A stretch of 44,058 nucleotides of DNA from an uncultured Planctomycetota bacterium (GTDB lineage Bacteria; Planctomycetota; Phycisphaerae; Sedimentisphaerales; UBA12454). The position numbers and the translations under genes were made by a program. A model generated the notes under the pieces. The model was not told where the DNA came from, ran no database searches, and worked only from the letters and a program-made list of their open reading frames with translations. The stretch lies in NCBI GenBank assembly GCA_903847315.1, contig CAINDG010000023.1, positions 1 to 44,058 of the forward strand, written 5' to 3'. Within the stretch, counting starts at the first letter, position 1. Each line of letters begins with the position of its first letter. This document shows positions 13,027 to 22,482 of the stretch, one piece after another.

Positions 13027-13472
13027 AAATTGTAGTTTATTTTCGGTTAAAAGTCAAATTATTTTTTATATTAATTGCATATCTTGTTATTTTATAAGTA
13101 TTTACGGAAGATATAATTTTAAGGGGAATATCGTTTATTTCAGGTGCAAATATATCCTAAATAGGATCGGTTTAAAGATTATAGTCTATTTATTCATAGG
13201 CACTGTTTCCTGCTGAACGGCATCCCTGAATTATCTACCGTAATAGTGGTTTTGCAGCGTTTGGAAATCGCGGCCGTTTTGGTCAGGGTGCGCCAAAATG
13301 GTCATTTTGTTTTTAAGTGTTTTTTAAAAAGGAACCTGTGAGAGAAAAAATATTTTTTCATCGGCCGAAACGGTCGGTCGTAAAAATTTTTGTTTTGGCG
13401 CGCATAATTTTTTTACTTTTCTAACCATTTATGAATGAACAAGTTAAAAAATTATTTTTCAAAAAAACCTTC
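13027..13472. other. Non-coding stretch upstream of the sigma-54 promoter
   Basis: There is no convincing gene in this AT-rich region. It holds dyads that could be activator sites: ATCCTA-AA-TAGGAT (13154-13167), CAAAATG-GT-CATTTTG (13294-13300 and 13303-13309), and an inverted pair GCGCCAAAA (13290-13298) and TTTTGGCGC (13393-13401). The last two sets lie roughly 80-210 bp upstream of the -24/-12 promoter, a usual distance for enhancer-binding proteins. The role is inferred. Confidence 0.4.
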
Positions 13473-13488
13473 TGGCACGCAGGTTGCA
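13473..13488 (+). promoter_or_regulatory. Sigma-54 (-24/-12) promoter
   Basis: TGGCACG (13473-13479), four bases, then TTGCA (13484-13488) matches the sigma-54 consensus TGGCACG-N4-TTGCW at every defined position, with GG and GC 10 bp apart. Transcription would start near 13498-13500, about 60 nt before the receiver-like gene. An enhancer-binding activator would be needed; none is encoded in this window. Confidence 0.85.
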
Positions 13489-13520
13489 ATATATAACTCG
13501 GAAGAAGAAGTAAATCGTTG

Positions 13521-13571
13521 AGGACGAGAAGAGTAATCTTCTTGGAAGTTAGGTGTACTAATGCTCGTCCT
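13521..13571 (+). promoter_or_regulatory. Leader structure enclosing the start region of the receiver-like gene
   Basis: AGGACGAG (13521-13528) pairs perfectly with CTCGTCCT (13564-13571), which begins at the second codon. The ribosome binding site AGGTG (13551-13555) and the ATG at 13561 lie inside the loop. A competing small hairpin AGAAGA-GTAA-TCTTCT (13527-13542) has a GNRA-type tetraloop. The leader also starts with a purine tract GGAAGAAGAAG near 13500. Translation control by folding is possible. Confidence 0.5.
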
Positions 13572-13980
13572 TGTAAAAGCGAATGTTGTAATGGTAGGAC
13601 TCGGAGGAAGAAGTGGCGCCTTAAAAAGGCTGCCAATCCGGGTCTTTTTTATTCAGACCGGCGCTAAAGCCGGACGCTCTTTGAAAAATGAAAGTGTCGA
13701 CAGTGTCATTAGTAAATGGGACCTGCCGGATGCGCCCGATGGGCAATTCCTGAAAAACCTGCGGCTGGCAAAACCTTATATGCCGGTCATTGCCATCGTT
13801 AATCCAAACGATGTCAGGCAGGAAATAGCGGCCCGGAGCATTGGCGCGGCAGCGGTGCTAAGCAGCGATGTCAGCGACCAGGTGTTCAGGCAGACCGCGG
13901 TGGGCGTCCTTGGACTTAATGATACTGAAGAAATCCAGAAACTCTGTGCAGTTGCAGACGATGAAAATCGTCGTGTCTGA
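13561..13980 (+). CDS. Orphan degenerate receiver-domain protein
   Basis: A 139-residue protein whose residues from about 27 on read as a CheY-like fold: a hydrophobic first strand RVFFIQTGA without the usual acidic pair, a second stretch VDSVISKWDLPDAPDGQFL resembling the phosphoacceptor loop (D-x-P-x-x-x-G), then PVIAIVNPNDVRQEI and IGAAAVLSSDV, where an active receiver would carry a conserved Lys. Missing acidic-pocket residues and Lys suggest a pseudo-receiver. There is no output domain. AGGTG lies 5 nt before the ATG; a second ATG at 13591 is possible. It is the only protein gene between the sigma-54 promoter and the RNA array. Function unknown. Confidence 0.7.
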   Translation: MLVLVKANVVMVGLGGRSGALKRLPIRVFFIQTGAKAGRSLKNESVDSVISKWDLPDAPDGQFLKNLRLAKPYMPVIAIVNPNDVRQEIAARSIGAAAVLSSDVSDQVFRQTAVGVLGLNDTEEIQKLCAVADDENRRV

Positions 13981-14045
13981 CACGGGCCAAAGACCGAACA
14001 GTGATATGGACCCGATTTGTCGACCAGCAACCGCACTGGTTTATA
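13981..14045 (+). repeat. RNA array unit 0 (diverged first copy)
   Basis: The loop motif GAACAGTGAT is at 13996-14005, closed by a weak stem CGGGCC/GGACCCG (13983-14013). The second hairpin is ACCAG/CTGGT at 14023-14040, a different stem in the position where later units have CACGG/CCGTG. No CU-rich tract precedes it, because the receiver gene ends there. Just after it, GGGAGGGAGG (14046-14055) could pair with the CU tract of unit A. Confidence 0.6.
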
Positions 14046-14074
14046 GGGAGGGAGGCCAGAGAAACAAATATAAC

Positions 14075-14161
14075 TTCTTCTCCTCCTCCAAGGTGGGTTG
14101 TGACCGGACAGTGATAGATGGTTACAGCCCTCCGGAGAGCAACCACGGCTTGACCGTGATT
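14075..14161 (+). repeat. RNA array unit A
   Basis: CU tract TTCTTCTCCTCCTCC (14075-14089). Hairpin 1 has arms 14092-14105 and 14120-14133, with 13 of 14 positions paired (two G-U), and presents GGACAGTGATAGAT. Hairpin 2 is CACGG-CTTGA-CCGTG (14144-14158). Confidence 0.8.
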
Positions 14162-14179
14162 AAATAAGGGCTCAGGAAG

Positions 14180-14275
14180 TTTTCTCCTCCTCCCAAATGA
14201 GCGGGCTTGTGATCGGACAGTGATAATAGTCGGTTACAGCCCACTCGCGAGCAAGCACGGTCTGGGACCGTGATA
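14180..14275 (+). repeat. RNA array unit B
   Basis: CU tract TTTTCTCCTCCTCCC (14180-14194). Hairpin 1 has arms 14199-14215 and 14231-14246, with one bulged T and one mismatch, and loop motif GGACAGTGAT at 14215-14224. Hairpin 2 is CACGGTC-TGG-GACCGTG (14256-14272), two base pairs longer than in unit A with both sides changed together. Confidence 0.82.
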
Positions 14276-14318
14276 ATTATAGAACCCGTCAGGAGGGGCG
14301 GGTCAGGCTCACAGAGAG

Positions 14319-14408
14319 TTTTCTCCTCCTCCCACGAGTAGGGTTATGGCTGAACAGTGATACATAGGTTATGACCCTCTCGACAGCAAGCACGGCTTAG
14401 CCGTGATG
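14319..14408 (+). repeat. RNA array unit C
   Basis: CU tract TTTTCTCCTCCTCCC (14319-14333), identical to unit B. Hairpin 1 pairs CGAG (14335-14338) with CTCG (14379-14382) and GGGTTATGGC (14341-14350) with GTTATGACCC (14368-14377), loop motif GAACAGTGAT at 14352-14361. Hairpin 2 is CACGGC-TTA-GCCGTG (14391-14405). Confidence 0.82.
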
Positions 14409-14445
14409 ATATATATCTGCCGCAGGCGGATGAAGCTAAGAATCA

Positions 14446-14536
14446 TTTTCTCCTCCCACGGAGTTAGGGTTGTCGGCTGAACAGTGAAAGTTCGGTTACA
14501 ACCCTTTTTTGAAAAGAGCATAGCCGAAAGCTATGT
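14446..14536 (+). repeat. RNA array unit D, ending hairpin 1 in a T-tract
   Basis: CU tract TTTTCTCCTCCC (14446-14457). Hairpin 1 has arms 14466-14482 and 14490-14505, pairing throughout except one unpaired C, loop AGTGAAA, followed at once by TTTTT; it could work as an intrinsic terminator. Hairpin 2 is CATAGC-CGAAA-GCTATG (14519-14535): two base pairs differ from unit C on both sides, C-G to T-A and G-C to A-T. Confidence 0.82.
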
Positions 14537-14578
14537 TTTATATAGAATGCTTACGGAATGAAGCATCACCCAATGTTA

Positions 14579-14627
14579 GGCCCCGGCCACAGATCACTGT
14601 TCGGTCTTAGGTCGGGGCCAGTTTTTT
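14579..14627 (+). terminator. Array terminator with loop complementary to the repeat loops
   Basis: GGCCCCGGCC (14579-14588) pairs with GGTCGGGGCC (14610-14619), ten pairs with one G-U, followed by AGTTTTTT. The 21-nt loop contains ATCACTGTTCGGTC (14593-14606), the exact reverse complement of GACCGAACAGTGAT at 13992-14005 in unit 0. Units A, B and C also pair at all 14 positions when G-U is allowed; unit D pairs at 13. A loop-loop interaction within the RNA or between processed units is likely. A small hairpin ATGCTT/AAGCAT (14547-14566) precedes it. Confidence 0.88.
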
Positions 14628-14710
14628 ACGCATTTCAAAACAGCAATATTCATTCAGCTTCAGCGATATTTGTTCGGCAATATTCATTTCCAAAAGATTA
14701 ACTAAAATAA

Positions 14711-16480
14711 TTGCAATTTGACGGCGACAGTCTAAAATTAAGCTGCTTATCGGATACGGAAATGAAAGATATCGACCTGGAAAAATATTCATCGGCGTTC
14801 ACCCTGTCAGATATGGAAATATTCGTATTTCCAGAGCTTATGTATTCGCTTCTACTGGCCAATATAATGAGCCCGATTGTCTGGAAATGGCGAGAGGAAA
14901 GTTCATTCAGGAAACTAGCGGGCAAAGACCCATATAAAAAACTTATGCGCCTCCGCCAATTTATAATGGATGAATTTGAGTTCAACCTCGATTTGGAAAC
15001 GTGGGGACTGACCGATAAAAATACAGAGATAAAAAGATTCGAGAAATTCCTTCCGCCTGCGGAAATCTCCAAAAGCAACGCGCTGTTTGGATACGAAGGC
15101 GATACATACTACTACGACGTCGATATCCGAAAACACTTCGGACTAGATAAATATAACAGCGATATTATCCCATACTGGAAAACCGAAACAGTAGAGGCTA
15201 TGAACGCCTTTCGTCACAAAAAAGGCTACAAAACAGGGGCAGGAGAATGTGTATCGCTGTCAACGCTTTACGCCGCGGCGGCATTTATCGTCTGCGGAAT
15301 ACCGCTTGAAGATATTTATATGGTTTTAACGCCGCTGCACTCGCAAAACTTCATAGATATCAACGGCGGGGTCATCACCAATAACAGAAGATTAGTTACC
15401 AACGCGATGTGGTTCAACGGCACGGAACTTTCCAACAAGGCGCAGCGGGCACTGCGAAACGAACAGATAACCATAGTCGAACACACAAGCGGACTTGTTC
15501 ACTGCCTTTATTCCGACGCGACAATCGACAAAAATATTTACGACAGATTTTGCGGCAAACTAAAAGGCTTTCTGAAGGCGGAATTATCAACGGCTATGAT
15601 GGTTAATTTCCTGCGGGCTAATCCGGATTATCAAAAATATTTTCAGTTCTGCAAGGAATGCCGAACCAATCCGCAATTTGTCAATGCAGAAGACCTTTTC
15701 AACTACGAACATCTAAGCCCGCTGAAAGTTTCCGACTGCTCGCATAAACAAATGCTCGAAGAAGTCTTTGACGGCGAGTTTTCAACCGAGCCTTCCCCCG
15801 GCAGAATCCGCTGTGACCAGTTCGAAGAATTTATGAGAAAGAAAAAGCCCGATATTAGAACCGAACAGGGCAGGGCGGACATTACGGAAGTTTTCGCAAA
15901 ATATATACCTGATTCCCGGAAGTTTGTGAATGAGCTTTACGACTTTTTACATATCGAGCCGAAGCTGCCTGCCGGAGAAAAAAATTACATACCGACAGAG
16001 CCGATAAAAATCTCACCAGATATGTCGAGAGAACAGATAATCGATTACCTCAAAAGCATAAGAGGTACTAATGTCGTCGCTGACCTTGCGTTTTACGCGT
16101 ATCGGGATATGGAAAGCTGCGACTGGAAGCCTTTTATCAAATCGGCAATTGAACGAAATCCGGTCTCAATTGAAATGACCAAAGATAAATCTATTGAAGA
16201 ATGTTTCAAATGGCTCAAGGATATGCCCAATGAATCAATATACGATAATAAGAGGCTGGCGCAGCCGGATGAAGTCGCCAATTACGCCCGCGGCGATGGT
16301 ATCGAAAAAGCGATTACACTTGCCAATATCCTGCATAAAAGAGAGCCAAACAAAGAAATTTCAATCAGGATAAATGGTAAAAGCGTTATCGTTGAAGCAA
16401 ATCAGAAATTTGAATTTCAAAGTTCAAAATCATTTGATAAAACGATAAAAATAAATAAAGAAGAATACAGAATACAGTAG
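14711..16480 (+). CDS. Large uncharacterised protein with transglutaminase-like Cys/His core
   Basis: A 589-residue soluble protein without a signal peptide. Around residues 175-225 it has GAGECVSLSTLYAAAAF and then TPLHSQNFIDI, a Cys at a helix start and a His about 35 residues later, as in papain-like transglutaminase folds; a third residue (Asp/Asn) is not certain. The remaining two thirds are not recognised; the final 45 residues look beta-rich. The start is unclear: TAA ends immediately before the TTG at 14711, and the first ATG is at 14762 after GGATACGGAA. It begins 84 nt after the RNA array terminator, same strand. Function unknown. Confidence 0.7.
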   Translation: MQFDGDSLKLSCLSDTEMKDIDLEKYSSAFTLSDMEIFVFPELMYSLLLANIMSPIVWKWREESSFRKLAGKDPYKKLMRLRQFIMDEFEFNLDLETWGLTDKNTEIKRFEKFLPPAEISKSNALFGYEGDTYYYDVDIRKHFGLDKYNSDIIPYWKTETVEAMNAFRHKKGYKTGAGECVSLSTLYAAAAFIVCGIPLEDIYMVLTPLHSQNFIDINGGVITNNRRLVTNAMWFNGTELSNKAQRALRNEQITIVEHTSGLVHCLYSDATIDKNIYDRFCGKLKGFLKAELSTAMMVNFLRANPDYQKYFQFCKECRTNPQFVNAEDLFNYEHLSPLKVSDCSHKQMLEEVFDGEFSTEPSPGRIRCDQFEEFMRKKKPDIRTEQGRADITEVFAKYIPDSRKFVNELYDFLHIEPKLPAGEKNYIPTEPIKISPDMSREQIIDYLKSIRGTNVVADLAFYAYRDMESCDWKPFIKSAIERNPVSIEMTKDKSIEECFKWLKDMPNESIYDNKRLAQPDEVANYARGDGIEKAITLANILHKREPNKEISIRINGKSVIVEANQKFEFQSSKSFDKTIKINKEEYRIQ

Positions 16481-22388: not shown

Positions 22389-22407
22389 TTTTATGTAAAA
22401 TGATTTT

Positions 22408-22455
22408 GGAGATGGAGTTCTCCGTATAACCGCCCAAAAGGCTGATGACTCCTAC
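22408..22455 (+). ncRNA. Fluoride riboswitch (crcB motif)
   Basis: The conserved crcB-motif core is easy to read: GGAGATGG-AG-TTCTCC (22408-22423), then AACCGCC (22428-22434), then GGCTGATGACTCCTAC (22440-22455). These match the fluoride riboswitch consensus in order and spacing. It lies 84 nt upstream of crcB, the usual target, and precedes an intrinsic terminator that shares its 3' strand, so fluoride should prevent termination. Confidence 0.95.
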
Positions 22456-22482
22456 AGTGAACGATGCTGCGGGAGTTTTTTT
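22448..22482 (+). terminator. Fluoride-responsive terminator (expression platform)
   Basis: ACTCC (22448-22452), part of the riboswitch 3' strand, can pair with GGAGT (22472-22476), followed by a run of T to 22482; an inner CAG/CTG pairing extends it. When fluoride stabilises the aptamer, ACTCC is held there and the terminator cannot form. The geometry is read from the sequence; switching is established for the class. Confidence 0.88.

Follow-up and report, generated by a model that had tools for sequence, protein, structure and literature searches.

The R1 operon in the window

The window, by which we mean the whole 44,058-nucleotide stretch of planctomycetotal DNA that was analysed, carries on its forward strand a tandem array of structured RNA elements, here called R1, at positions 13983-14627. 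R1 consists of one 5' hairpin and four units followed by an intrinsic terminator, and it lies behind an open reading frame (ORF) with similarity to response-regulator receivers (Table 1). The five copies of the motif GRACAGTGAW reported in a first-pass annotation of the sequence are present at positions 13996, 14106, 14215, 14352, and 14479 of the + strand, at spacings of 110, 109, 137, and 127, where 0.25 sites are expected in the whole window. The unit order given there (CU tract, long-loop hairpin, short hairpin) was recovered in all four units, and its four short-hairpin stems and CU tracts read in the sequence as claimed. The first motif copy has neither a CU tract nor a short hairpin, and in unit 4 the CU tract is cut short. 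All four units are matched by a covariance model of the unit, unit 4 with 59 bits; the model finds no further unit elsewhere in the window's genome at E 0.1. On the + strand, the stability of the fold of positions 13977-14630 exceeds that of 20 shuffles by 10.6 SD; on the - strand the margin over shuffles is 5.8 SD.

Absent from the earlier annotation are the terminator that ends R1, a sixth copy of the loop motif, antisense, at 14593-14602 inside the terminator loop, and the inverted repeat I1, which links the first unit with the terminator. The 5' hairpin is predicted to be able to pair with the terminator loop and 3' arm, and its segment AAGACCGAACAGT is unchanged in all seven aligned genomes covering that stretch. 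The terminator scan overlooked the real R1 terminator because its loop is longer than 8 nt.

Table 1. Features of the R1 operon and its surroundings, in window coordinates
Feature	Position	Strand	Basis or remark
Palindrome CCGTTTTGG	13274-13282		read in sequence; likely enhancer-binding-protein site
Palindrome CCAAAATGG	13293-13301		read in sequence; likely enhancer-binding-protein site
Third upstream palindrome CCGAAACGG	13365-13373		read in sequence
Sigma-54 promoter TGGCACGCAGGTTGC	13473-13487	+	pattern match
Pseudo-receiver (response-regulator-like) ORF, 139 aa	13561-13980	+	Pfam Response_reg E 1.2e-5, below curated cut-off
5' hairpin, loop AAAGACCGAACAGUGAUAU	13983-14014	+	inverted repeat I1, 32 nt, 81%
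Conserved G-rich segment GGGAGGGAGG	14046-14055	+	alignment, fold; potential intramolecular pairing with CU tracts
Unit 1	14075-14158	+	CU tract 14075-14089, loop hairpin 14095-14130, short hairpin 14144-14158
Unit 2	14182-14272	+	CU tract from 14182, loop hairpin 14203-14242, short hairpin 14256-14272
Unit 3	14321-14405	+	CU tract from 14321, loop hairpin 14341-14377, short hairpin 14391-14405
Unit 4	14448-14535	+	shortened CU tract from 14448, loop hairpin 14467-14504, short hairpin 14519-14535
Intrinsic terminator GGCCCCGGCC...GGTCGGGGCC-AG-TTTTTT	14579-14627	+	sequence, inverted repeat, alignment
Terminator loop GATCACTGTTCGGTC	14592-14606	+	antisense to unit loops, most extensively to first
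ORF, 589 aa	14711-16480		no Pfam or NCBIfam match

Substitutions in the ORF ahead of R1 fall mostly at codon position 3, and the ORF is therefore coding. In the family genomes and in G016, a genome of another family, a residue other than Asp occupies its phosphoacceptor position, in a motif of the type VISxW[DN]LPD seen by eye, and on account of this replacement the ORF is termed a pseudo-receiver. Searches with Pfam and NCBIfam returned only the weak receiver match and no RNA-binding domain. The sigma-54 -24/-12 site of the window reads TGGCACG-N4-TTGC, and a site of the GG/GC type occupies the same place in 13/13 aligned genomes (ten strict, three close variants), against a chance expectation of 0.01-0.02 per stretch. 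Palindromes of the form CC(A/G)WWW(T/C)GG, which resemble activator sites, also lie upstream of the pseudo-receiver ORF in relatives. Since the promoter is found upstream in all 13 aligned genomes together with these activator-like palindromes, the ORF and R1 probably form one sigma-54 transcript. Other sigma-54-like promoters were seen in the window's own genome (L053, L058, L062, and L063), ahead of a dnaK-like ORF with CCAAAATGG upstream, ahead of a second receiver-like ORF together with a groES-like ORF, and ahead of two amtB-like genes.

The same 589-aa ORF lies behind the array in eight family genomes including the window's, and its 13 relatives are all in Planctomycetota MAGs. It was rejected as a partner of the array, as it is missing behind the array in other family genomes. 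Farther along the window, a Fluoride riboswitch (RF01734, 60 bits) at 22399-22461 directly precedes an ORF at 22464.

Conservation, covariation, and matched loops

Among 59 relatives searched at the DNA level, the array turned up within the genus and the family and, more weakly, in G016. Its layout is kept in 12 of the 13 family genomes and in G016, with about four to seven units per array, and the pseudo-receiver ORF precedes it in all 13 of these genomes. In a structure-blind alignment of 44 units taken from 13 genomes, pairing in the two hairpins was kept in 91.1% of cells, compared with 83.6% in shuffled and 32-47% in slid controls, and 67 cells were changed on both sides versus 21.6 expected from the shuffles. 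Of 500 shuffles, not one matched the array on four of the five covariation measures and a single one did on the fifth, counts that are not probabilities because the units share kinship; the slid control retains this relatedness. A search with a covariance model of the unit, of the kind proposed in the first-pass annotation, gave matches in 41 of the 161 genomes of the order, often in tandem, a count that rests on rough E-values and MAG assemblies. With homologues of conserved pairing and double-sided changes that keep the pairs, the original description of a selected tandem structured RNA with covarying hairpins holds, and we regard the existence of such an RNA at R1 as very nearly certain. 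In two relatives (L041 in G007 and L044 in G012), the first unit and part of the pseudo-receiver tail are duplicated, which may show how arrays grow.

As had been anticipated from the layout, no Rfam 15 family reaches its gathering threshold at R1, nor does any at threshold on four related arrays, the leader units of G080, or the R2 locus described below. A permissive Rfam scan of positions 13400-14720 gave chance-level matches only, and no known riboswitch or other Rfam class fits R1. For the proposal that the array is processed into several trans-acting RNAs, no evidence was found; with a single sigma-54 promoter and a single terminator, whose loop can pair with each of the unit loops, the layout argues for one RNA acting whole. 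The scaffold role offered as an alternative is possible.

The unit loops occur in two sequence types, each with its own terminator loop. In type 1, found in the window's family, G016, and G153, the terminator loop TCACTGTTC goes with GRACRGTGA-like unit loops; in type 2, found in the second array of G002 and in G108, G021, G041, and G112, the terminator TCACTGGCC goes with GGYCRGTGA-like loops. Pairing with the own terminator at all nine positions is found in 53/56 loops of type 1 and 16/16 of type 2, in total 69/72 with G-U allowed, and with the terminator of the other type in none, counts from which pattern matches inside stems were omitted by hand after counting. The three non-pairing loops are all in G016, and G002 holds both types in two separate arrays. 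The type switch may have been a single event, so that the evidence from it is strong but unreplicated. In the whole RNA the unit loops are predicted to be mostly unpaired, except the first loop in some genomes.

Loop-antisense sites elsewhere in the genome, with one mismatch allowed, number 17 including the array's own versus 9 in a reversed control, so target enrichment is not clear, and the three sites of GACCGRACAGTG in family genomes outside R1 are not above chance. The 5' region of a pseudopilin-like ORF (G000:C43:11125-11145; L002:1501-1521) is complementary at 20/21 bases to the R1 terminator loop and 3' arm, a match with E 0.06 that is possibly a target and possibly chance.

The second RNA, R2, and the PEP-CTERM company

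The sequence GGAGGAGGAGAA, which is complementary to the CU tracts, has five sites in the window's genome, three of them antisense to CU tracts, one in a second RNA, R2, and one antisense within a coding gene. R2 lies behind groEL and follows its own sigma-54 promoter, whose upstream palindrome TGTTG..CAACA differs from that of R1. It is a hairpin RNA with the terminator loop GCCAGGAGGAGG, and the CU tracts are complementary to its purine-rich loops, GGAGGAGGAGAAG and, within the terminator, GGAGGAGG. By DNA search and covariance model, R2 is present in 12/13 family genomes; the GGAGGAGGAGAA matches at G004:C66, G006:C130, and G010:C63 are R2, and the match at G003:C9 was rejected, being within an apparent coding region. 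In a duplex search with the R2 loop over both strands of the 44 kb, CU tracts are three of the four best sites, to be read with the caveat that any GA-rich string tends to match a CU-rich one through its composition. R1 is not singled out by the R2 terminator loop in this search, and whole-length R1-R2 duplex energies are not clearly separated from shuffles. The CU tracts are predicted to be only partly open; their accessibility is low in the window, at 0.19-0.28, and mostly 0.2-0.45 in relatives, compared with an RNA-wide mean near 0.38.

Genomes with arrays carry R2 in 14 of 41 cases and those without in 3 of 120, a co-occurrence confounded by kinship. R2 is present and the array absent in G010 (96% complete), and the reverse is found in G005 (82% complete). 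Outside the family, only 3/29 array-bearing genomes have an R2 match, each of them weak. Four weak matches in other families have a GGAGGAG-type terminator loop in 4/4 and a promoter in 3/4; the weak match in G065 has no clear promoter. A copy near-identical to that of the window's family, in a 68%-complete genome of another family (L211, G127:C69), may reflect contamination or transfer. Suggestive is a lineage-specific 10-bp match in G082 (L204, L224) between one CU tract, CTCCTCCGAA, and the R2 loop TTCGGAGGAG. CsrA (PF02599) is encoded in 12/13 family genomes including the window's; it could bind the GGA loops of R2, which may exist for CsrA, and R1 would then affect CsrA indirectly.

At about 19 of 21 independent array loci outside the family and G016, counted by hand, a pseudo-receiver homologue lies within 1.5 kb. 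PEP-CTERM ORFs adjoin an array or unit in G002 (second array), G021, G041, G066, G067, G080, G081, G088, G108, and G112, with the domain confirmed by NCBIfam in two and assigned to the others by the C-terminal motif pattern; none was seen beside the window's array. Single units stand directly before individual PEP-CTERM ORFs in G080 and G081. Terminator-like hairpins with matching loops lie between the array and the PEP-CTERM gene in G002 (second array), G041, G108, and G021, which suggests attenuation in these other families, and inside the array in G112. At the G112 locus (L197, 1230-2600) the T run of this hairpin is weak, and more units and a PEP-CTERM ORF lie beyond it.

Possible roles of R1

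The sequence itself shows a structured array that is conserved and covaries, the layout of the operon, the matched changes of unit and terminator loops, and R2 with its complementarity to the CU tracts. From these features we infer a model that adds a single transcript, pairing between R1 and R2 inside the cell, a decoy role, and targets of R2. We tentatively favour R1 as a trans-acting multi-site decoy for R2, at somewhat under an even chance, because its repeated tracts are complementary to R2. Several results weigh against this reading: G010 and G005 each have one of the two RNAs and lack the other, R2 matches in array-bearing genomes outside the family are few and weak, the CU tracts are predicted to be poorly accessible, the R2 terminator loop does not favour R1, whole-length duplex energies are uninformative, and the GGA loops may exist for CsrA. 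R1 would be the non-coding 3' part of a sigma-54 operon that also encodes the pseudo-receiver protein, and it would fold into a row of like units on whose loops the terminator loop docks. The repeated CU tracts would capture R2 by base pairing with its purine-rich loops, and the targets of free R2 would be mRNAs or a GGA-binding protein such as CsrA. If so, an RNA decoy would form the tail of a regulator mRNA, with a terminator antisense to its own repeats. The pairings of unit loop with terminator loop and of CU tract with R2 loop are concrete and testable by mutation and compensation. R1 and R2 are two linked uncatalogued RNA families in a planctomycetotal order (Sedimentisphaerales and allies), with links to sigma-54 control and, among related families, also to surface proteins of the PEP-CTERM type. 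In the titles and abstracts of the open-licence literature we found no description of regulatory RNAs of this kind in the order, nor of an array like R1 or a leader RNA of PEP-CTERM genes.

The main rival to the decoy is a protein ligand common to the array and the PEP-CTERM leaders. The units would bind an RNA-binding protein, possibly the pseudo-receiver, which their row would titrate or scaffold, with the CU tracts and the R2 loops each serving as protein sites of their own. Almost everywhere the array is accompanied by the pseudo-receiver ORF, the unit is preserved as a module that occurs in 1 to 7 copies, and the single units before PEP-CTERM genes are the layout expected for a shared ligand. 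We nevertheless consider this unlikely, as the ORF offers no RNA-binding domain beside its weak receiver match, and the loop changes across families yet stays complementary to the terminator, which favours RNA-RNA pairing for the loop.

R1 could instead be a cis-acting leader or attenuator in which pairing of the terminator hairpin with the unit loops, above all with the 5' hairpin, tunes downstream read-through. Pairing of the 5' hairpin with the terminator loop and 3' arm would exclude the terminator stem, and both the terminator-like hairpins before PEP-CTERM genes or within the G112 array and the 589-aa ORF behind eight family arrays fit such a role. A codirectional downstream gene is not universal, however; the gene after the terminator is convergent in G007, G011, and G016, so a cis-leader role cannot be general, and in the window a 6-T intrinsic terminator ends the RNA. 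We find this reading doubtful, a shade more so than the protein ligand.

It is improbable, in our estimate, that R1 and R2 are an RNA antagonist pair from different enhancer circuits, with R1 polymerizing via its terminator loop and its units derived from or mimicking PEP-CTERM leaders; were it so, the terminator loop would plug the loops of other copies, giving a multivalent assembly that captures R2. Very improbable is a self-assembling ornate RNA in which one terminator plug and several loop sockets yield oligomers; each RNA does present a single antisense loop to four or five loops that match it, in two sequence versions, and the unit loops are predicted mostly open, but docking inside one molecule accounts for the same data. 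That R1 has no RNA function, being DNA repeats or a tandem-duplication relic as the local segment duplications in G007 and G012 might suggest, is scarcely credible against double-sided pair-keeping changes across lineages and a conserved promoter and terminator.

CrcZ and CrcY are sigma-54 decoy RNAs of Pseudomonas that titrate Hfq/Crc, and CrcZ combines sigma-54 transcription and several like single-stranded motifs with an intrinsic terminator. R1 likewise has a sigma-54 promoter, as judged by sequence, repeated motifs, and an intrinsic terminator, but its repeated motif is CU-rich rather than the A-rich CA motif of Hfq/Crc, its units are structured, it is linked to a pseudo-receiver ORF, and its terminator loop is antisense to its unit loops. 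With CsrB/RsmZ it shares tandem hairpins with a repeated loop, a terminator, and the presence of CsrA in most family genomes; unlike in those RNAs, the R1 loops do not retain a GGA core (GAAC/GGAC/GAGC, GGCC), and the GGA loops are on R2. GlmY/GlmZ are also two regulatory RNAs of which one is possibly a decoy, although GlmY mimics GlmZ for the protein RapZ, whereas the proposed R1-R2 contact is base pairing between unlike RNAs. R1 has the repeated sites complementary to a specific small RNA that characterize a sponge RNA, subject to the same caveat of composition. ANTAR-target RNAs have paired hexanucleotide A1-G4 loops, in contrast to R1 loops of about 14 nt and 3-7 nt with other sequence. 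Like the large bacterial RNAs ROOL, GOLLD, and OLE, R1 is long and multi-hairpin with possible loop-loop pairing; it differs in having no Rfam match and in its repeated short units, and a possible likeness in assembly would lie in its loop complementarity. In the PEP-CTERM/PrsK-PrsR regulon, a sigma-54 DNA motif precedes proteobacterial PEP-CTERM genes (Haft 2006, PMC1569441). The parts of that paper at hand describe a DNA motif in Proteobacteria and mention no RNA element; common to both systems is the association of sigma-54 with PEP-CTERM, as array loci in the order often adjoin PEP-CTERM genes.
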